NCBI GenBank assembly: GCA_015680905.1
Contig: CM027381.1
Location: 85,647,501-85,711,500 of the forward strand
Source: Coptis chinensis
Lineage: Eukaryota; Streptophyta; Magnoliopsida; Ranunculales; Ranunculaceae
DNA: 64,000 nucleotides
Direction: 5' to 3'
Shown here: one piece after another, positions 24,076 through 62,216 of the stretch
How the letters are laid out: every line of letters begins with the position of its first letter
Numbering within the stretch: position 1 is the stretch's first letter
Notes under the pieces: model-generated
Seen by the model: the letters and a program-made list of their open reading frames with translations, nothing else
What the model was told of the DNA's origin: nothing
Database searches by the model: none
Made by a program: the position numbers and the translations under genes

Positions 24076-27000
24076 ATGATGGCTGCCGTTGCGGATATTA
24101 CCGCGGTGGAGGTATGATATTAGTTACTGTTTCATTTCGTATTATATATTGTTTTGTTTTATTGTGTTGTTTTTTCTTTTTACTACAGGGTTCATGTAGG
24201 CAAAATTTGTTTTTTCCAAGGAATTCATGTAAAGTATTAAAGAGTCATATGCTGCTGCTTTGGGGTTCTTTACATAGACAGAGGTCATTGCCAGCGTTGT
24301 CGTATAGAAATAATACTCCCAAGGCGGTTGTTTCAAGAAATGTGGAATCTAGTGAGGTTGGAGGTTCTGATGACAAGGTTATGCATTATTACCGTGTCCC
24401 TTTGATGCAGGAGAGTGCTACTGCTCAACTTCTTAAGTTGGTTCAGACAAAGGTTTCTAGTGAAATAGTTGATTTGAAGACAGAACACTGTTTTAATATT
24501 GGGGTTGATTCGCCTCTTTCGGATGAGAAGCTTCAAGTCCTTAAATGGCTTCTTGGAGAAACGTATGAACCGGAGAATTTAGGGACAGTTACTTTTCTTC
24601 ACAAGGAGAAGCGGAATGGTGCCTATGCTGTTGTTGTTGAGGTTGGGCCTCGTTTGTCTTTTACAACAGCCTGGTCAGCTAATGCCGTATCCATTTGTCG
24701 TGCTTGTGGGCTGACAGAGATTACTCGGTTAGAGAGGTCGAGACGTTACTTGTTGTATGTTAAGGCAGGAAGTGATTTTCTACAAGAATCTCAGCTTAAT
24801 GAGTTTGTGACGATGGTTCATGATAGAATGACAGAGTGTGTTTATCCTCAGATGCTCACTTCATTCAAGACGAGTGTAGTTCCAGAGAAAGTGAGTTATG
24901 TGCCAGTCATGGAGAGGGGACGAGTAGCATTGGAGGAAATCAACAAGAAAATGGGGTTTGCATTTGATGAACAAGACATAGAGTATTACACATGGCTGTT
25001 TAAGGATGAAATCAAGCGGGACCCTACAACAGTGGAACTCTTCGATATTGCACAGTCTAACAGTGAGCACAGTAGGCATTGGTTCTTTACTGGAAAGATT
25101 GTTGTAGATGGACAGCCGATGAGTAGGACACTGATGCAAATTGTGAAGAGCACTCTGAAGGCCAACCCCAACAATTCAGTAATTGGCTTCAAGGACAATT
25201 CTAGTGCAATCAGGGGTTCCAAGTGAATCAGTTGCGTCCGGTCCAACCTGGTTTGACATCTCCATTGAGCCCAACTACCCGGGACCTTGATATCTTATTT
25301 ACAGCTGAGACTCATAACTTCCCATGTGCTGTTGCTCCTTATCCTGGCGCTGAGACAGGAGCTGGTGGTCGCATCAGGGATACCCATGCTACAGGAAGGG
25401 GTTCATTTGTAGTGGCATCGACAGCTGGTTATTGCGTTGGGAACCTTCGTATGGAAGGCTCATATGCTCCTTGGGAAGATTCAGCATTCAGTTATCCATC
25501 TAATTTGGCTTCTCCACTGCAGATTCTCATTGAGGCCAGCAATGGTGCTTCTGATTACGGGAATAAGTTCGGAGAACCCTTGATTCAAGGGTACACTAGA
25601 ACTTTTGGGATGAGGCTCCCAAATGGAGAAAGGCGGGAGTGGTTGAAGCCAATCATGTTCAGTGCTGGGATTGGGCAGATTGACCACTCCCACATAACAA
25701 AGGGAGAGCCTGAGGTTGGATATCTAGTGGTGAAGATAGGTGGTCCAGCATATCGGATTGGAATGGGAGGTGGAGCTGCATCTAGCATGGTTAGTGGTCA
25801 GAATGATGCGGATCTGGATTTTAATGCCGTACAGCGAGGTGATGCAGAGATGGCACAGAAGTTGTATCGGGTCGTCCGTGCTTGTGTGGAAATGGGGGAG
25901 AACAACCCAATCATTAGCATTCATGATCAGGGTGCGGGTGGTAATTGTAATGTTGTGAAGGAAATAATTTATCCTAAGGGTGCTGAGATTGATATTCGAG
26001 CAGTGGTAGTTGGTGACCATACTATGTCAGTTTTGGAGATATGGGGTGCTGAGTATCAAGAGCAAGATGCAATATTGGTGAAGCCTGAAAGCCGTCAACT
26101 GTTGCAGAGTATTTGTCAAAGAGAAAGGTTGTCAATGGCTGTTATTGGAACTATAAATGGTAAAGGACGAGTAGTATTAGTTGACAGCTTAGATGTGGAA
26201 CAGTGTAGATCTAGCGGCCTTCCTCCTCCCCGTCCTGTAGTCGATTTTGAGCTTGAGAAAGTACTTGGGGACATGCCTCAGAAAACATTTGAGTTTACTC
26301 GGGTAGACCAACCCTTAGAAGCACTTGATATTGCCCCAGCGACCACCTTAAAGGACGCATTAAAAAGGGTATTGAGACTTCCTTCTATCGGTTCTAAACG
26401 CTTTTTGACAACTAAAGTTGACAGGTGTGTAACGGGTCTTGTGGCACAACAGCAAACAGTGGGCCCCTTGCAGATTACTCTTTCTGATGTTGCTGTTATT
26501 GCTCAGTCATATAATGAGCTCACTGGGGGTGCTTGTGCTATTGGGGAGCAACCTTTGAAGGGTTTGCTGAATCCAAAAGCCATGGCGAGACTGGCTGTCG
26601 GGGAAGCACTTACAAACCTTATTTGGGCCAGGGTTTCATCTCTTTCTGATGTAAAGGCTAGTGTAAATTGGATGTATGCTGCCAAGCTTGATGGGGAAGG
26701 AGCAGTAATGTATGATGCTGCTGTGGCACTATCAGAAGCAATGATCGAGCTGGGTATTGCAGTTGATGGGGGAAAGGACAGTCTTTCAATGGCAGCCCGT
26801 GCATCAGGTGAAGTCGTCAAGGCTCCTGGAAATCTCGTCGTTAGTGCATACGTCACTTGCCCAGATATAACATTGACAGTGACCCCAGATCTGAAGCTCC
26901 AAGACGATGGGATCCTACTTCACATTGATTTGGGAAAAGGAAAGCGACGTTTAGGTGGATCTGCTCTTGCTCAGGTGTTTGACCAAATTGGAGATGAGTG

Positions 27001-28597
27001 CCCCGATCTTGACGATGTTCCTTATCTCAAAAGAGTCTTTGAAGCTACACAGGATTTGCTTGCAGATGGCTTAATCTCTGCAGGTAATTTTTTTTTTGGC
27101 TAGTTAAGTTTCTGTTATATTAATAAATAAGAAAAAGTACAAGGTGATAGTTGATCCAAGGATTTCTAGGTTTACAGATCCTAGAATCCAAAGAAAATGC
27201 ACCTATTAAGAATTTACAAATCTGAAATAGATAGAAACAGGGTCCTCCCATTTATAGATTAGTGGTAGTCTCCCGTCATACAACACTCTAGAGTCAACTT
27301 GGATACTGATTTATTAATCTCTGCAGGTCATGATATTAGTGATGGTGGATTGATTGTAAGCATTCTGGAGATGGCATTTGCTGGAAACTGTGGGGTCTGC
27401 TTGGATCTAAACTCACAAGGTGGGAGCCTCTTCCATGTACTTTTCTCAGAAGAACTTGGCCTTATTCTTGAGGTTAGCAAGAAGAACTTGGATACTGTCA
27501 AGGGGAAGCTTCACGCTGTTGGCATTTCTACTGAGGTTATTGGAAAGGTGACCAAGTCTCCCACAATAGAACTCCGGGTTAATGGTGCAGTTCAAATGAA
27601 AGAGGAAACTTCTGACCTTAGAGACATGTGGGAGGATACAAGTTTCCAACTCGAGGGGTTTCAGAGGCTGGCATCCTGTGTGGAATTAGAAAAAGAGGGG
27701 CTGAAGAACAGGCGTGCACCTTCTTGGGATTTATCTTTCACTCCAGCATCCACAGATGATAAATGGTTTGCAGTTGCTGCTAAACCGAAAGTAGCTGTAA
27801 TTCGAGAAGAAGGAAGCAATGGTGATAGGGAAATGTCTGCTGCATTCTATGCTGCTGGTTTTGAACCATGGGATGTCACAATGTCAGACCTTCTTCAGGG
27901 GGCGATCTCTCTCGATGAGTTCCGTGGAATTGCATTTGTAGGAGGTTTCAGTTATGCCGATGTATTGGGTTCAGCTAAAGGTTGGTCGGCCTCTATCCGC
28001 TTCAATGAGCCTCTCCTAAAACAATTTCAAGAGTTCTACAACCGTCCTGATACGTTCAGCATTGGGGTTTGCAATGGATGCCAGCTCATGGCTCTGCTGG
28101 GATGGGTGCCAGGAGCCGAGGTTGGGGGCGTCCATGGAGTGGGGGCAGATCCATTGCAGCCAAGGTTCATCCACAATGAGTCAGGCCGATTTGAGTGTCG
28201 CTTCATAAGTGTGACGATTGGGGATTCTCCTGCAATAATGTTTAAAGGAATGGCAGGTAGTACATTGGGTGTGTGGGCTGCTCATGGTGAGGGAAGGGCA
28301 TATTTTCCTGACGATGGCATACTTGATCGGGTCCTTGAGTCAAACTTAGCACCACTTAGATACTGTGATGATGATGGGAAAACAACCGAGGTTTATCCTT
28401 TTAATCCGAATGGATCCCCGTTGGGAGTGGCTGCACTTTGTTCGCCTGATGGTAGACATTTGGCTATGATGCCTCATCCTGAGCGATGCTTCCTGATGTG
28501 GCAGTTCCCATGGTACCCCAAGCATTGGAATGTTGACAAGAAAGGTCCCAGCCCATGGCTGCGGCTATTTCAAAATGCAAGAGAGTGGTGCTCTTAA
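24076..28597 (+). CDS. PUR4: Phosphoribosylformylglycinamidine synthase (FGAM synthase), plastid/mitochondrion-targeted
   Basis: Glutamine- and ATP-dependent conversion of FGAR to FGAM, fourth step of purine synthesis. Three exons: 24076-24111 (MMAAVADITAVE), 24189-27083 and 27327-28597, about 1,400 residues, matching the plant enzyme. An N-terminal basic, Ser/Arg-rich targeting region comes first, then the PurS-like part (EVGPRLSFTTAWSANAVSIC), FGAM-synthase cores with SNSEHSRHWFF, TAETHNFPCAVAPYPGAE, GGGAASSMVSGQ, HDQGAGGNCNV and DGGKDSLSMAA, and a C-terminal glutaminase with nucleophile Cys near residue 1226 (GVCNGCQLMALLGW) and the His/Glu pair in MMPHPERCF. One oddity: in the GGGGTT run at 25213-25218 one base seems missing, so the frame runs to TGA at 25224 while homology continues in the next frame (VNQLRPVQPG). 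That is either an assembly error or a disabling change; all else looks functional. Possible 3' UTR intron at about 28609-28713. Confidence 0.93.
24112..24188 (+). other. Intron 1 of the FGAM synthase gene
   Basis: 77 bp, GTATGA to TACTACAG, phase 0, splitting the targeting peptide. Joining GTG GAG to GGT TCA TGT restores the expected N-terminal run (AVE then GSCRQNLFFPRNS), so this splice was chosen over a start inside the open stretch at 24114. Confidence 0.8.
27084..27326 (+). other. Intron 2 of FGAM synthase, bounded by 15-bp direct repeats
   Basis: The 15-mer TTAATCTCTGCAGGT occurs at 27071-27085 and again at 27314-27328. Splicing at CAG/GT in each copy removes exactly 243 bp and leaves the conserved AGHDISDGG intact (phase 1). 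The insert proper (27086-27313) starts AA then ten T, so on the minus strand it ends in a poly(A)-like tail. The layout is that of a retroposed piece with a target duplication that supplied both splice sites. Confidence 0.8.
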
Positions 28598-29591: not shown

Positions 29592-29795
29592 TGATCTCAT
29601 ATTTGCTTAAACTATACTAACTGTGCTTATGATAAATAAGATTGCTTTAAGTCCTCACAGTTTGGGATCTCCTGTGCGGAGAAGATATACTGTATAAACT
29701 AAGAGTTTCTGAAGAATGAATTTATTTATATTATCTCAAAATAGAAAGTTACAAGTATTTATACAAGCTTCTCTAATCAATCTAGCTATCCTAAC

Positions 29796-30565
29796 TTTAT
29801 ACAGTTGTCACAACTGAACTCTAACTTACTATAGAGAGGTCAGCATATAAACTTATACTCTTTTGCCCTCTCTCAAGCTGAAGTGTACAACACTGAGAGC
29901 TTGAAGTGCATAAGCTTTACCCTCTCTGAAGATGAAGTGTCAGAAAAACTTTAATACTTTGCATTACCCTTTCTCACTTGGATGTTGCCTCACTGACACT
30001 GTACTGGAGAGTCTGAAACCTTGAAGCAGAAAGTCCCTTAGTGAAAATATATGCTAGCTGACCATGTGTGCATAGATATTTCACTTCAATTACTTTGTTC
30101 ACAACAAGTTCTCTGATGTAATGGTAGTCCATCTCGACATGTTTTGTCCTAGCATGAAAAATGGGATTGGATGCAAGAGCTTTATATAGTTGTCACAAAT
30201 GAACTCTAACTTACTATAGAGAGGTCAGCATATAAACTTATACTCTTTTACCCTCTCTCAAGCTGAAGTGTACAACACTGAGAGCTTGAAGTGCATAAGC
30301 TTTACCCTCTCTGAAGATGAAGTGTCAGAAAAACTTTAATACTTTGCATTTTCCTTTCTCACTTGGATGTTGCCTCACTGACACTGTACTGGAGAGTCTG
30401 AAACCTTGAAGCAGAAAGTCCCTCAGTGAAAATATATGCTAGCTGACCATGTGTGCATAGATATTTCACTTCAATTACTTTGTTCACAACAAGTTCTCTG
30501 ATGTAATGGTAGTCCATCTCGACATGTTTTGTCCTAGCATGAAAAATGGGATTGGATGCAAGAGC
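29796..30565. repeat. 385-bp tandem duplication at the 3' end of the Copia fossil
   Basis: 29796-30180 and 30181-30565 are near-identical (offset 385). Each contains the inner part of the 3' LTR and the adjoining end of the internal region, so an extra LTR piece lies inside the element. The very high identity shows the duplication is younger than the LTR divergence. Confidence 0.9.
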
Positions 30566-32808
30566 TATGGCACTGATACTGTCACACCACTGTGTTGGGG
30601 GATCCTTTAGATAAACTTTCAAAACTGATAATATTAAGCACAACCAGTATAAATCTGCTGCGGTATGTGCAAGCGATCGATATTCAGACTTGGTTAAAGA
30701 TATCGCAACTGGTTGATTGTTTTTTAGCTGAACATGCTATAGGGCAGTTTCCTAGAAATACACAAAATCCACTAGTAGACCCCCTAACAGATGGTGATCC
30801 AGCCCAATCTGCATCTGAGTAGGCAGTGAGAGACATGGGTACTTTTGTGAAACATACACCTTGATTTAAAGTACTCTTGACATATCTCAATATCCTTTTG
30901 ACTGCAAAGAAGTGTGAATTCTAGGAGAGTGCATGTACTGGGATACTTGATTCACAGCAAAGGCCATATCTGGTCTGGTCCAAACAAGATATTGAAGACC
31001 ACCAACAAGTGATCTATAGAGTGTAGGATCGTCAAATAATTCACCAGAAGTAGAGTCTAATTTAGTTCCACTAGGACAAGGCGTGGAAATAGTTTTGGCT
31101 CCCTCCATGTTTGCCTTTTGTAACAATTCAAGTGCATATTTAGATTGACACAGGAAGAGTTGCTTTGATGATCTGTGAACTTCAAGACCCTGGAAAAAGT
31201 GAAGATCACCAAGGTCTTTCATAGGAAACTTTTGACTACATTGGGAAATGACATTTTGAATGAGGGAAGATGAATTTTCTGTGATGATCATCAACATAGA
31301 CAACGATAATGACAATGTGAGAGCCAGTTATCATTAAAAACAAACAACTATCAGCCTTGGATGTTTCAAAGTTGAGATCAACTAGAACTTGAACTAACTC
31401 AGGATACTAAGCCCTAGGAGCTTGCTTCAAACCATATAAAGATTTTTGAAGTTTACAAACATGATTTGGTTTAGTAGGATCAACGAAACCAGGTGTTTGA
31501 ACCATATAAACAGTTTCTTTTAGATGACCACGAAGAAAGGCATTACTCACATCAAGTTGTTTGATAGCCCAGTCACGTTGGAAAGCAAGGGCAAGAACAA
31601 TTCTGATGGTTGCTGGTTTGACAACAGGGCTAAAAATGTCAGTAAAATCAACACCAGGTTGTTGGTGAAAGCCTTTGGCAACAAGCCTGGCTTTGTGCTT
31701 ATCCGGAGAACCATCATCATTTAGTTTGAGTCTAAACACCCATTTAGACCCTGGAAGATTATATTCTGATGAGTAGGGTACTAAAATCCAAGTACCATTC
31801 TTTTGTAAGGCATTAAACTCTTCACTCATAGCCTTTCTCCAATTTTCATCCTTTACTTCTTGAGTATAACAAGTGGGTGTTATGGGAATATTTGCAAGAG
31901 AAGAATGAAGTGCTTGAATAGGATGTTTGGTGGCAAAAATTGTTTAGGCTTGAAAATTCCATTTTTGGATCTAGTGGTCATCTTGTGAGTGAGATTACAT
32001 TCTTGAATGACAGTTCTGGATCTTGTATTCATAGGATGAGATTAATATTGGTGTTGTGATTGAATTAATGGATGAGATGGTTGAGATCTATGATATTGAT
32101 TAGGTTGTGATTGAGTGGGAGAGGAAGTTGAGTTTGAATGAGATGAAGAATTTGACTAAGTTTCAGAGTGAACATGAGAAGTTGAGTTTGATGATTGAGA
32201 TAAAGTATGAGAACTAGAACTGTGTGGTGCAGGTGATGTAGGAGGAGGGGGAGGAGGAGGAGATGAGTTAGTTTGAAAAATGGATCAAAAGTTGGAACAA
32301 GAGTATCACTGGATTTAGATATAGAAGAATGTGAAGGAGTTGAAAACTGGTGTTTAAAAGGACAGTTTTTCTCATCAAATATGACGTGCCTAGAGACATA
32401 TGCTCTACCAGTATTAGGATCCAAGCACCTATATCCAGTATGATTTAAACTATAACCAATAAAAATACAAAGTTTACTTCTAGGTTGCAGTTTATTGGAA
32501 GTGTATGGTCTAAGCCAGGGGAAACTTACACAACCATAGGCTTTTAGAAATTTATAGTTAGGAGCTTGGTGAAAGAGAAGTTCCCAAGGAGAGATGTACT
32601 TTAAGGCTTTAGCAGGAAGTCTATTAATAAGGACAGGTTTGAAAGACATCCACCTAAAATTTTTCAGGTAAACCACTGAGAAAGAAGAGTTCTAGACAAA
32701 TCAACTACATGTCTATGTTTTCTTTCAGCAACCACCCCTTTTTGCTCTGGGGTGTGAACACAAGGGAATTGATGAGTAATATAGTGGTTATACGGGTCCA
32801 ACAACTTC

Positions 32809-49213: not shown

Positions 49214-49879
49214 AGTTCTCTGATGAACTGGAATCAAGTCAGACGTAGTTCATTTTGAGTGATTGAGTTGGAGATGGAAAGAATGTGACCCCCCCCCCCT
49301 CGAGAATGGAGAAGACACCTCCTTTTATAGGCATAGATCCCCCTTTTGCGCTGTCTTGATGATTGCTTTTACTCCTTCCGTTACGAAGTAATGATCTGTC
49401 ATTAATGATATTGTTGACTAGTTTGTAGCGGTTACGTTTCCTAGGTTATTTGGATGACCTGACCTTAGGTATGCACAACCTGCTTGTAGTCTGGACACGT
49501 GGTCTGCCACGAGTGGTTGAGAGTGGAGGCAACTGACATAGCCCCCTTTCTTTATATCAATGTTTGTAGAATAGTGGTGTAAAGAAAGATAATAAAGGAG
49601 ACCGTGTGTCTTACTTTTTTGTGTTTGTAGGCTGGATGTCATTTGTTGCTTAGAGCTTTGTTGGGAGTTGATGTGGTAGGTCCTACGTCGTAGTGAGCAG
49701 ATTGTAGCTTGTAATACGTAGATCATAAATCGTATGTCATAGCTCGTAGTGCGTAGATCATAGTTCGTAGATTGGTTTTGATTGATAATTAGCTTTTGAG
49801 TGGTAATTACAGTTGAATCAAACTTAACCCTGGCATTGGTGTTAAGTTGATTGTACGCTTTTTGAGGGCGTTTTTGTTG

Positions 49880-50150
49880 ATAGTTTAGTCTTTTGGGGGC
49901 GGCACTATGGTTGATAGCTAGCCTTTTGGGGGCGTCACTATAGTTGATAGTTAGCCTTTTGGGGGTGTCACTATGGTTGGTAGCTAGCCTTTTGGGGGCG
50001 TCACTATGGTTGATAGTTAGCCTTTTGGGGGCGTTACTATGGTTGGTAGCTAACCTTTTGGGGGCATCACTATGGTTGGTAGCTAGCCTTTTAGGGGCGT
50101 CACTATGGTTGATTGCTAGCCTTTTGGGGGCGTCACTATGGTTGTTTCCC
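49880..50150. repeat. 33-bp minisatellite, about 8 units
   Basis: The unit is of the form TAGCCTTTTGGGGGCGTCAC plus TATGGTTGATAG, with degenerate outliers to about 50330. On the minus strand it keeps an 11-residue frame (NHSDAPKRLA-type), and the plus strand is open too. Confidence 0.9.
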
Positions 50151-57595: not shown

Positions 57596-57604
57596 TTGTT
57601 AAGT

Positions 57605-57638
<34 letters not shown>

Positions 57639-57902
57639 TTCGTAGAAATGAACCAAATATATTTTTTAATTTTTTTAGAAATGAACCAATCCATCATAAG
57701 AAATTAAAAAAAATAAAAAAATAAATAATTTCTACGTATATATATTAAAAAATTATTTTTAAAAAAAAAATTGTATATCGTAATTTTTTTTTAAAAAAAA
57801 ACACTATATATATCGTAGATTTTTTTTAAAAACTTCTTATGATGGATTGGTTCATTTCTTAAAAAATTAAAAAAAAAACAAAATATATATATATATCCAA
57901 AT

Positions 57903-58262
57903 AAGTAGCTACTTAAGTTAACTTAAAATAAGTATGTAGGTAAAACTTCACCTATAAAATAAATTAATGTTTTGTGGATATGATATACTTACTGTAAAGA
58001 TTATCTCCATAAAATTTCAGCTCATTTGAAAACCTCTAACATTAGCAAAAAATTATTGTAAAAACTCAACATTTCTAGACCGTTAGATTTATTTTTAAAG
58101 ATGACAATAATTTTTATCTATGTTAGAGATTTCCAAATTAACTAAAATTTTGTGGGGATGATCTTTATGGTAAGTGTTTCACATCCACAAAAAATTAGCT
58201 TTGAATTCATTTTATAGGTAAAGTTTTCTTACTTATTTTAGGTGTAGTAACTTTTTAGAGAA
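57903..58262. mobile_element. Foldback MITE, family B, copy 1
   Basis: Starts AAGTAGCTACTTAAGTTAAC and ends with the inverse phrase (ACTTATTTTAGGTGTAGTAA). The arms are near-complementary over most of their length, with TA-rich flanks. Non-coding. Confidence 0.65.
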
Positions 58263-58334
58263 GGACTATATATATATAAAATGAATTCAAAGCTAATTTT
58301 TTTATGGATGTGAAACACTCACTATATATATATA

Positions 58335-58727
58335 CAGCCCGGCTCCTAAAAGGACCTTAAATAAGTATCAAATCTAAAACACCTACAACTTCACCTACAA
58401 AATGATTTAAACCCTAATCTTTTGTGCATATGATCTACTAACCATAAAGAACATCTCTACAAAAATTCAACTCGTTTGATATCCTTTAACTTAGATAAAA
58501 TTGTTTTCTACTTTTGAATATATATATAAAGGTCCAGAAATGTCTAATTTTTGCATTCATCTTTTGCCAGTGTTAAAAATTGTCAAACGAGTTGAATTTT
58601 TGTAGAGATGTTCTTTATAGTTAGCAGATTATATGCACAAAAGATTAGGGTTTAAATCATTTTGTAGGTGAAGTTGTGGGTGTTTTAGATTTGGTACTTA
58701 TTTAAGGTTCTTTTAGGAGCCGGACTG
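58335..58727. mobile_element. Foldback MITE, family A
   Basis: Ends CAGCCCGGCTCCTAAAAGGA and TTCTTTTAGGAGCCGGACTG are inverted repeats, and the arms pair over about 190 bp around a short AT-rich centre. It is inserted in a TA repeat, so the target duplication cannot be separated from the microsatellite. Its internal order of motifs parallels family B. Confidence 0.8.
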
Positions 58728-58945
58728 TATATATATATATATAATTTTTATTTATTTATTTATTTTATTTTTTTAGAAATGACTTTATTTGGTTCATTGA
58801 TGTTTTTAAAAAAATATTAATTTCTACGATATATATAATTTCATGTAAAATCGTATTCAAGTACTATCTTCAACAAATTTATCAACATAAATAGTTAATA
58901 CAATGTAAATCTATAATAAGAAACTCTAAGTAGAGCACAAGAAAC

Positions 58946-59300
58946 TCAGGCTGTCACCCTCCTATGGGTAACACAGAAAACAACAAAGACAACGACAACA
59001 CAAACGTGAAGTACGATGCTATAGATATATGCATCGCCCTCCACCTCCTCTCGTTGATGTACAGGATAACTAACCCTGTCATCGCGGTAGTAACAAATCT
59101 TACTGCGTCTACAATACCCTGGGTCAGAGCAGACCCAAGGTACGTGGTCACAATAAGATACGTACCCACACTAAGCCCAATTACCCTAGTATGCCATCCA
59201 CCCTGAAGCGTGTGTGGATACTGAATACCCAAATAAGTAACCGAAACAGCAACTGAAAAATCAAATGCCAGTTTTGCAATACGGATCGTATACTACGTGA
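58946..59300 (-). pseudogene. Membrane-protein last exon, copy 1
   Basis: The minus strand reads GIQYPHTLQGGWHTRVIGLS, VGTYLIVTTYLGSALTQGIV and MTGLVILYINERRWRAMHIS, with four hydrophobic spans, then a stop region followed by shared 3'-UTR-like sequence. One frame shift separates the first residues from the rest and another changes the C-terminus relative to copy 3. I do not recognise the family. No upstream exons are present, so it is a partial duplicate. Confidence 0.5.
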
Positions 59301-59360
59301 GACCGGCTGACGACGAGACGACGTTATATATATATAACTTGAGTAGCTACTTATTTACGT

Positions 59361-59364
<4 letters not shown>

Positions 59365-59433
<69 letters not shown>
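59365..59433. repeat. (TA)n microsatellite
   Basis: About 34 TA units. Shorter TA tracts at 57607-57636, 60381-60414 and 61003-61026 separate other blocks of the array. Confidence 0.95.
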
Positions 59434-59435
<2 letters not shown>

Positions 59436-59662
59436 TAGAAATGAACCAATCCATCATAAGAAATTAAAAATAAAATAAATAATAAATAATTTCTACGTAC
59501 ATATATTAAAAAATTAATTTTAAAAAAAAATTTGTATATCGTAAAAATTAAAAAAACATTATATATATCGTAGATTTTTTTTAAAAAAAAAAAATTTCTT
59601 ATGTTGGATTGGTTCATTTCTTAAAAAATTAAAAAATATATTTGGTTCATTTATATATATAT

Positions 59663-59960
59663 AAGTAGCTACTTAAGTTAACTTAAAATAAGTATGTAGG
59701 TAAAACTTCACCTATAAAATGAATTAATGTTTTGTGGATATGATATACTTACTGTAAAGATTATCTCCATAAAATTTCAGCTCATTTGGAAACCTCTAAC
59801 ATTAGCAAAAAATTATTGCAAAAACTCAATATTTCTAGACCGTTAGATTTCTTTTTAAAGATGACAACAATTTTTATCTATGTTAGAGGTTTCCAAATGA
59901 GTTGAAATTTTGTGGAGATGATCTTTATGGTGAGTGCTTCACAACCACAAAAAAATTAGT
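59663..59960. mobile_element. Foldback MITE, family B, copy 2 (partial)
   Basis: Begins AAGTAGCTACTTAAGTTAAC and shows most of both arms, but the distal end is missing before the next element starts at 59983. Confidence 0.6.
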
Positions 59961-59982
59961 TTTTATGATTTTTATATATATA

Positions 59983-60377
59983 GTCATTTTCTAAAAAGTT
60001 ACTACTTAAGTTAACCTAAAATAAGTACGTAAGTAAAACTTTACCTATAAAATGAATTCAAAACTAATTTTTTGTGGTTGTGAAGCACTCACCATAAATA
60101 TCATCCCCACAAAATTTCAACTCATTTGGAAACCTCTAACATAGATAAAAATTGTTGTCATCTTTAAAAAGAAATCTAACGGTCTAGAAATATTGAGTTT
60201 TTGCAATAATTTTTTGCTAATGTTGGAGGTTTCCAAAATGAGCTGAAAGTTTATGGAGATGGTCTTTAAAGTGAGTATATCATATCCACAAAACATTGGG
60301 GTTGAATTCATTTTATAAGTGAAGTTTTACCTATGTACTTATTTTAAGTTAACTTAAGTAGCTACTTTTTAGAGAAT

Positions 60378-60380
<3 letters not shown>
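59983..60380. mobile_element. Foldback MITE, family B, copy 3 (complete)
   Basis: GTCATTTTCTAAAAAGTTAC at the left and AGCTACTTTTTAGAGAATGAC-type sequence at the right form the terminal inverted repeat. Arms of about 190 bp meet at CTAACGGTCTAGAAATATTG. Both ends abut TATATA, so the insertion site was a TA repeat. 398 bp, non-coding. Confidence 0.8.
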
Positions 60381-60419
<39 letters not shown>

Positions 60420-60640
60420 TTATTTTAGAAATGACTGTCTTTGATTAATTATATTTGGTTAAGTTTTTTAGAAATGACCGTATTTGGTTCATTAATGTTT
60501 TTAAAAAAATATTAATTTCTACGATATATATAATTTCATGTAAAATCGTATTCAAGTATTATCTTCAACAAATTTATCAACAAAAATAGTTAATACAATG
60601 TAAATCTATAATAAGAAACTCTAAGTAGAGCACAAGAAAC

Positions 60641-61000
60641 TCAGACTGTCAACCTCCTACGGCTAAAACAGAAAACAACAAACACTACTACAACCACAAA
60701 CGTGAAGTACTATGCTATAAATATATGCATCGCCCTCCACCTCCTCTCGCTGATGTACAAGATAACTAACCCTGTCATCGCGGTAGTAACAAATCCTACT
60801 GCGTCTACAATACCATGTGTCAGAGCAGACCAAAGGTACGTGGTCACAATAAGATACATACCCACACTAAGCCCAATTACCCAGCTGACATGCCATCCAC
60901 CCTAAAGCGTGTGTGGATACTGAATACCCATATAAGTAACCGGAACAGCAGCTGAAAAATCAAATGCAAGTTTCGTTATACATATCGCATACTCGTATAC
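60641..61000 (-). pseudogene. Membrane-protein last exon, copy 2
   Basis: Same protein as at 58946 and 61650 (FDFSAAVPVTYMGIQYPHTL, VIGLSVGMYLIVTTYL, ISERRWRAMHIFIA). Several in-frame stops make it the most decayed copy. The same 3' block and 5' acceptor-like edge (CTAGGTATACGAG) are present. Confidence 0.5.
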
Positions 61001-61027
61001 CTAGACATATATATATATATATATATA

Positions 61028-61410
61028 AACCAAATAAGTTGCTACTTAAGTTAACTTAAAATAAGTATGTAGGTAAAACTTCAGTTATAAAATGAATTAA
61101 TGTTTTGTGGATATAATATACTTACTGTAAAGATCATCTTAATAAAATTTCAGCTCATTTGGAAACCTCTACCATTAGCAAAAAAATATTACAAAAACTC
61201 AACATTTTTAGACCGTTAAACTTCTTTTTAAAGATGACAATAATTTTTATCTATGTTAGAGATTTCTAAATTAGCTAAAATTTTGTGGGGATGATTTTTA
61301 TGGTGAGTGTTTCACATTTACAAAAAATTAGATTTGAATTCATTTTATAGGTGAAGTTTTACTTACCTACTTATTTTAGGTTAACTTAAGTAGTAACTTT
61401 TTAGAGAAGT
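61028..61410. mobile_element. Foldback MITE, family B, copy 4
   Basis: AAGTTGCTACTTAAGTTAAC to GTTAACTTAAGTAGTAAC, with arms as in the other copies but more diverged. Confidence 0.65.
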
Positions 61411-61649
61411 ATATATATATATATATTAATTGTTTTTAGAAATGACCGTATTTGGTTCATTATATTATGGTTAATTGTTTTAGAAATGACTGTATTTGGT
61501 TCATTAATTTTTTTAAAATATTAATTTCTAATATATATATAATTTCATTTAAAATCGTATTCAAGTACTATCTTCAACAAAATTATCTACATAAATAGTT
61601 AATACAATGCAAATCTACAATAAGAAACTCTAAGTAGAGCACAAGAAAC

Positions 61650-62006
61650 TCAGGCTGTCAACCTCCTACGGGTAACACAAAAAACAACAAACACTACTAC
61701 AACCACAAACGTGAAGTATGATGCTATAAATATATACATCGCCCTCCACCTCCTCTCGCTGATGTACAGGATAACGAACCCTGTCATTGCGGTAGTAACA
61801 ATTCCTACTGCGTCTACAATAGCCTGGGTCAGAGCATACCCAAGGTACGTGGCCACAATAAGATACGTACCCACACTAAGCCCAATTACCCTTACATGCC
61901 ATCCACCCAGAAGCTTGTGTGGATACTGAATACCTAGATAAGTAACCGAAACAGCAGCTGAAAAATCAAATGCCAGTTTCGCAATAAAGATCACATACTT
62001 GTATAC
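61650..62006 (-). CDS. Membrane-protein last exon, copy 3 (open frame)
   Basis: After an acceptor-like TTGTTCAG at about 62007, the minus strand is open for 118 codons: VYKYVIFIAKLAFDFSAAVS, VTYLGIQYPHKLLGGWHVRV, VIGLSVGTYLIVATYLGYAL, VTTAMTGFVILYISERRWRA and a hydrophobic VVVVVFVVFCVTRRR end before TGA. Four predicted spans: about 5-27, 45-66, 70-92 and 98-116. There is no initiator Met at the exon start, so it should be the last exon of a larger gene, but no upstream exon is visible within the array. I do not recognise the family; a SWEET-like reading was considered and dropped. Flanked by family B MITEs. Confidence 0.45.
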   Translation of the reverse strand, partial: VYKYVIFIAKLAFDFSAAVSVTYLGIQYPHKLLGGWHVRVIGLSVGTYLIVATYLGYALTQAIVDAVGIVTTAMTGFVILYISERRWRAMYIFIASYFTFVVVVVFVVFCVTRRRLTA

Positions 62007-62138
62007 CTGAACAATATATATATATATATAACTTAAGTAGCTACTTATTTTAGGTTAACTGTATATATATATCGTAGAAATGAACCAAATATATTTTTTA
62101 ATTTTTTTTAGAAATGAACCAATCCATCATAAGAAATA

Positions 62139-62145
<7 letters not shown>

Positions 62146-62216
<71 letters not shown>
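62146..62216. repeat. (TA)n microsatellite
   Basis: About 36 TA units, joined directly to the duplicated purine-gene upstream sequence. Confidence 0.95.

Follow-up and report, generated by a model that had tools for sequence, protein, structure and literature searches.

The origin of new introns is a long-standing question, and clear recent gains with a known source seem rare in plants: a survey of Introners reports none of its intron-making families in land plants (PMC9860276). A 243-bp interruption of an enzyme gene in Coptis chinensis raises this question at a single locus: was the intron gained by insertion of a retroposed sequence whose duplicated target supplied both splice sites, as an earlier note on this DNA had proposed? 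The window, by which we mean the whole stretch of 64,000 nucleotides analysed, is C5:85647501-85711500, and the assembly searched comprises 935,630,033 bases in 116 contigs.

The interrupted FGAM synthase gene

The plus strand of the window carries a gene for phosphoribosylformylglycinamidine (FGAM) synthase whose halves flank the insert. Pfam and NCBIfam profiles on either side (PF22689, PF02769, PF13507, TIGR01735) confirm what the earlier note had called a purine gene, the downstream exon holding the end of AIRS_C and then the glutamine amidotransferase domain (PF02769; PF13507 at E=9e-108). Its features, with those of the intron, are as follows.

24076-24111, plus strand: predicted short first exon
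24112-24188, plus strand: predicted first intron
24189..27083, plus strand: FGAM synthase coding exon upstream of the new intron (frames; TIGR01735 positions 2-895, in two pieces)
27084..27326, plus strand, 243 bp: predicted spliceosomal intron, GTAATT...CTGCAG, phase 1 (frame restored, 80/80 gapless)
27306..27310, plus strand: CTGAT, which resembles a CTRAY branch point, its A lying at -18 (motif scan; insert-derived)
27327..28597, plus strand: FGAM synthase coding exon downstream of the new intron (TIGR01735 positions 886-1306)
28595-28597, plus strand: FGAM synthase stop codon

Removal of the 243 bp, from GT at 27084 to AG at 27326, restores the FGAM synthase reading frame, and the earlier claim that a conserved motif is thereby re-formed holds well: the 25 residues across the junction align without a gap in 80/80 bacterial FGAM synthases (80 retained from 388), and G-H-D and S-D-G-G do not vary among them. 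The interruption falls within the G|GT of a glycine codon, itself invariant in the 80 homologues. The splice context, CAG|GTAATT ... CTGCAG|GT, combines GT...AG termini with a CAG|GT proto-splice site, and the CAG/GT of the duplicated target is positioned as both donor and acceptor, just as had been suggested. The intron is richer in A+T than its surroundings (68% vs 52% and 55% in the 500 bases of flanking exon on either side). CTRAY being the branch-point consensus, CTGAT is a candidate branch point; a fold of the intron RNA gave nothing special (z 0.94). Read through unspliced, the gene meets seven in-frame stops, the first at 27101, so that the amidotransferase part would be lost from the product. 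Just downstream of the gene, 29795-30566 holds a 385-bp unit in two tandem copies, 98% alike.

The second gene copy and the probable use of the gene

The gene occurs again on contig C6, insert included (97% over 226 bases), in a recent, decaying segmental duplicate that also takes in the 3' flank (L013, C6:92777000-92786900). This copy is without the first exon and the upstream region, similarity beginning at 24124, and its coding sequence has eight frame-breaking indels (deletions of 40, 37, 17 and 28 bases and four single-base indels) vs one in the window copy, together with in-frame losses of 15 and 3 bases. By its sequence, the long copy on C6 is a broken pseudogene that shares the intron. 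The single break in the window copy is of one base, at 25213-25216, where the window reads G4 vs G5 in C6; apart from this one base, in a run of G, the gene keeps an open frame throughout. The break is perhaps an assembly error, and otherwise a private allele or the mark of a dead gene, in which splicing need not persist.

The frame breaks in the two copies are what would favour the strongest alternative to a spliced intron, namely that the LINE insertion described below is real but unspliced, that it knocked out the gene and that both long copies are pseudogenes of different ages. We consider this unlikely. FGAM synthase is essential, and a plant lacking it should be unable to make purines; when the assembly, which may be incomplete, was searched with TIGR01735, the best candidates scored included no other near-intact FGAM synthase. 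In that search the window gene spans profile positions 2-1306 in three pieces, and beyond it there are matches to the C6 copy, split into seven, and to three short fragments. The window copy has also kept its frame otherwise open, whereas C6, with the same insertion, has been broken repeatedly.

Comparison of the two copies with homologues leans towards C5 as the kept copy. The copies differ at 11 amino acids upstream of the break and at 17 residues below it; at these 17, the residue rarer among the homologues stands in C6 at 10 and in C5 at 4 (26570, 26621, 27968, 28205), with 3 equal. C7-polarised substitutions number 3 non-synonymous and 2 synonymous in C5 and 3 and 6 in C6, with three ambiguous, numbers too small to demonstrate constraint. 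With an essential enzyme and the window gene as the sole candidate found, the simplest reading is a homopolymer error or a private allele in a working, spliced gene. The gene is probably used with its insert spliced, and we infer that this splicing takes place in the living plant.

The target duplication and the inserted element

The earlier note had placed a 15-mer at both intron edges and had taken it for a 15-bp target duplication. The 15-mer, TTAATCTCTGCAGGT, does stand exactly at 27071 and 27314 (spacing 243); these are its two exact plus-strand copies in the whole window, and the minus strand has none. Such a repeat is by itself not unique in kind, because the window holds 55 maximal rows of exact direct repeats of at least 15 bp at 100-600 bp spacing. 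More than half of these rows (30/55) start at 62014-62015, adjoining a (TA)n array. AT-rich blocks that resemble one another, some direct and some inverted, occupy 57600-62200 together with (TA)n runs, and a 33-bp unit recurs in about 8 copies at 49876-50144.

What lifts the repeat at the intron above chance is the C6 paralogue, in which the same insert has an exact 18-bp duplication: the 18 bases TTAATCTCTGCAGGTCAT stand at both edges, one copy abutting the poly(A) and the other the 5' end of the insert. In the window 17/18 bases match, and the single change, C to A at 27086, falls on donor position +3. The target itself reads GGTCAT (GGTAAT in the left copy of the window), so C is ancestral and A derived. 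The duplication proposed earlier is thus upheld through the paralogue and its length revised to 18 bp (27071-27088 / 27314-27331). The proposed T10 run at the start of the insert needs a similar adjustment: it lies at 27088-27097, two bases past the end of the 15-mer, and is a poly(A) on the other strand as claimed, but its first T is part of the duplication and the insert proper begins at 27089, right after the 18 bp.

27071..27088, plus strand: upstream copy of the target duplication, TTAATCTCTGCAGGTAAT, which supplies CAG|GT (donor); 15-mer exact, 18 bp exact in C6
27314..27331, plus strand: downstream copy of the target duplication, TTAATCTCTGCAGGTCAT, which supplies CAG| (acceptor); 15-mer exact, also in the C6 copy
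27089..27313, 225 bp, minus-strand sense: inserted 3' end of an L1-type LINE, truncated 5' (own-genome matches; 3' tail and A-rich end common to dispersed copies)
27089..27097, minus strand: poly(A) tail of the retroposed RNA, a T run on the plus strand (sequence; other copies end A-rich at the same point)
27209..27310, minus strand: last 34 codons of LINE ORF2, its C-terminal end in the RNase H region (translation; LINE-locus and genome matches; RVT_3 upstream in L154)
27206-27208 and 27203-27205, minus strand: stops TAA and TAG after the end of ORF2

Target duplications of L1-type LINEs are variable in length, about 7-20 bp, and 18 bp lies within the range expected for such an insertion. The cleavage site, TCAT/GA, agrees at 3/6 places with the L1 endonuclease consensus TTTT/AA. 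This departure would speak for another origin of the intron, a staggered double-strand break repaired with filler DNA, the direct repeat stemming from end filling, as would the direct repeats of new Daphnia introns, reportedly ascribed to such repair. We find that origin very improbable here: the filler opens with a poly(A) right after the duplication and runs to a 5' truncation like that of other LINE copies.

Retroposition in reverse orientation, also put forward in the earlier note, agrees with the minus-strand LINE sense, the poly(A) end and the C-terminus of ORF2. On the minus strand 27310-27209 translates to ISIQVDSRVLYDGRLPLIYKWEDPVSIYFRFVNS, then TAA TAG, and this peptide matches the C-terminal end of LINE frames. 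It scores 29.3 bits vs 17 LINE locus records (15 distinct places), a score that 0/200 shuffled peptides reached (best shuffle 22.7). In the whole genome it has at least 149 matches at E<=1 among the best 150 of 370 candidates scored, window and C6 included; within these 150, the matches are mostly weak (E 1.9e-4 or weaker except for the window, C6 and L004), and many lie in open frames, some of them stop-free over 250-347 aa. The ORF2 homology covers the 34-codon C-terminus, with RVT_3 upstream in longer copies. Locus L154 has PF13456 RVT_3 (E=1.4e-12) upstream of its peptide-matching end, and a similar 3' tail, and in L152 the same profile stands in the frame beside the element (1/10 LINE-flank frames scanned, nine being without a match). 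L004, at 85% DNA identity, reads REANFATDIDAKRG upstream of the range of the insert, close to REANFAADIAAKRG of the L154 RNase H frame, with a frame change inside L004. The ORF2 C-terminus, the RNase H of the longer loci, the common tail and the continuation in L004 establish the insert as LINE sequence; it reads, antisense to the gene, as the final stretch of ORF2 of an L1-type LINE with the 3' UTR and poly(A) that follow. An LTR end, which we had considered from a TATA-like stretch in the sense direction, is ruled out by the 18-bp duplication, the poly(A) and the ORF2 C-terminus, and a viral-contig scan gave no match. At another locus, L155 (C9:57710500-57711700), DUF4283 (PF14111) and a LINE-type C-terminus share one open frame, apparently that of a LINE lacking the central part of its coding sequence.

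The insert is also dispersed, as the earlier note had expected. A 228-base query gave at least 19 own-genome matches, made up of the window, C6 and at least 17 further copies, of which 13/17 end in ...TTAACTAGC (TTAACCAGC in L003) and an A-rich stretch and 4/17 (L004, L007, L039, L041) stop short of this tail. LINE loci, longer elements included, have the common tail ...ACTTAACTAGC(A)n, and a 30-base tail pattern has 12 genome matches vs 0 for its reversed control. The 5' ends of the matches vary among copies, and divergence may also have shortened the matches of diverged ones. Common flanks in L003/L037/L039 and in L036/L040 reduce the 17 to at most 14 independent insertions. At these 17 copies, which are mostly more diverged, the search for target duplications gave none that was convincing, with only 9-bp matches, off the element ends.

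The copies found by DNA similarity are short, and the upstream flank of L008, used as a query, returned only an unrelated repeat, as might be expected of a SINE with a LINE-like 3' tail, mobilised in trans. This origin, too, we find very improbable: upstream of the tail, 34 codons of the insert show homology to LINE ORF2 and end in a stop at the matching place, and L004 runs on into RNase H sequence. An old conserved intron, later invaded by a LINE, is the least credible of all: the duplication (18 bp) and the LINE-type insert (225 bp) make up the full 243 bp and leave no older intron sequence.

Proposed mechanism, known systems and age

We favour, at a probability of roughly 0.85, an antisense LINE insertion into an exon of FGAM synthase, whose target duplication gave both splice sites and whose insert is spliced as an intron. 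This reading takes in the insertion, its 18-bp duplication, the LINE identity, the exact restoration of the frame and the sharing of the insert with a paralogue that has since decayed. A polyadenylated LINE RNA would have entered the coding exon in antisense by target-primed reverse transcription, the copy being truncated at its 5' end. Staggered cleavage would have duplicated 18 bp of exon with the proto-splice site CAG|GT, one duplicate becoming the donor and the other the acceptor, with the AT-rich antisense LINE tail between them as the body of the intron. Splicing would then excise exactly the inserted length and leave the protein unchanged, and the C-to-A change at +3 (GTCATT to GTAATT) may be a later strengthening of the donor. 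The motif (A/C)AGGT is present in about 4.8% of the 18-base windows in this coding region, so few random insertions would start out with both splice sites, and the survivors would be those that did. If this mechanism is true, the change from a raw insertion to a better intron is directly readable here. The source element, the insertion mechanism, the target duplication and the ancestral donor are still legible, which makes the duplicated proto-splice-site model testable at this locus.

The mechanism is already known in kind, as transposon insertion with splice sites from the target duplication. The catalase gene CatA of rice is said to contain a p-SINE1-like intron, which likewise arose from a non-LTR retroposon within a gene for a plant enzyme; that element is a SINE, whereas the one described here is an antisense, partly coding 3' end of an L1-type LINE, with a near-perfect 18-bp duplication giving both splice sites. 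In maize sh2, Ds has reportedly made an intron, again a plant transposon acting as a new intron, but Ds is a DNA transposon with an 8-bp duplication. Recent intron gains in Daphnia, reportedly attributed to break repair, resemble ours in the short direct repeats at both intron edges and differ in that the filler here is an identified LINE. The closest parallel is that of Introners, in which transposon insertion into an exon makes an intron and some families (Florenciella) draw both splice sites from the insertion site; they form families of similar introns, many of them resembling DNA transposons, with duplications of 3-9 bp (PMC9860276). The present case is, in contrast, a single intron of LINE type with an 18-bp duplication in a land plant. 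Among the matches listed in the open-licence literature, titles and abstract openings named no LINE-derived plant intron, and a search of that literature for plant FGAM synthase gene structure found no paper. Recent well-readable plant cases appear rare, and the present one stands out by its LINE source, its 18-bp duplication and the survival of the ancestral donor. The odds seem to us about even that this is a documented plant intron made from an antisense L1-type LINE 3' end with splice sites from an 18-bp duplication, perhaps the first in a land plant, with the weaker donor GTCATT kept in a dead paralogue.

The C5 and C6 introns differ at 6/243 aligned positions, plus one extra base in C6, and the 3' non-coding flanks at 44/1250 (3.5%). 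Since both copies carry the insert, the insertion is older than the C5/C6 gene duplication. The nearest dispersed copies (L039, L006, L003, L007) are 6.7-8.4% different from the two FGAM inserts. At a substitution rate of about 7e-9 per site per year, these values would very roughly correspond to ~5 million years (from 6.7-8.4%) and ~2.5 million years (from 3.5%). The description of the intron as newly gained is supported at the level of sequence, by a nearly perfect duplication and by this distance to the nearest copies. Elsewhere in the assembly, an FGAM synthase fragment lies in a dispersed repeat at three loci with one common internal deletion (L017, L018 and L019, at C7:12535930, C5:16783394 and C3:6453761). 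The deletion removes the left flank, so that these fragments are uninformative on the empty site. L018 and L019 are 95% alike over 2.8 kb, and the fragment is probably a gene piece captured by a transposable element.
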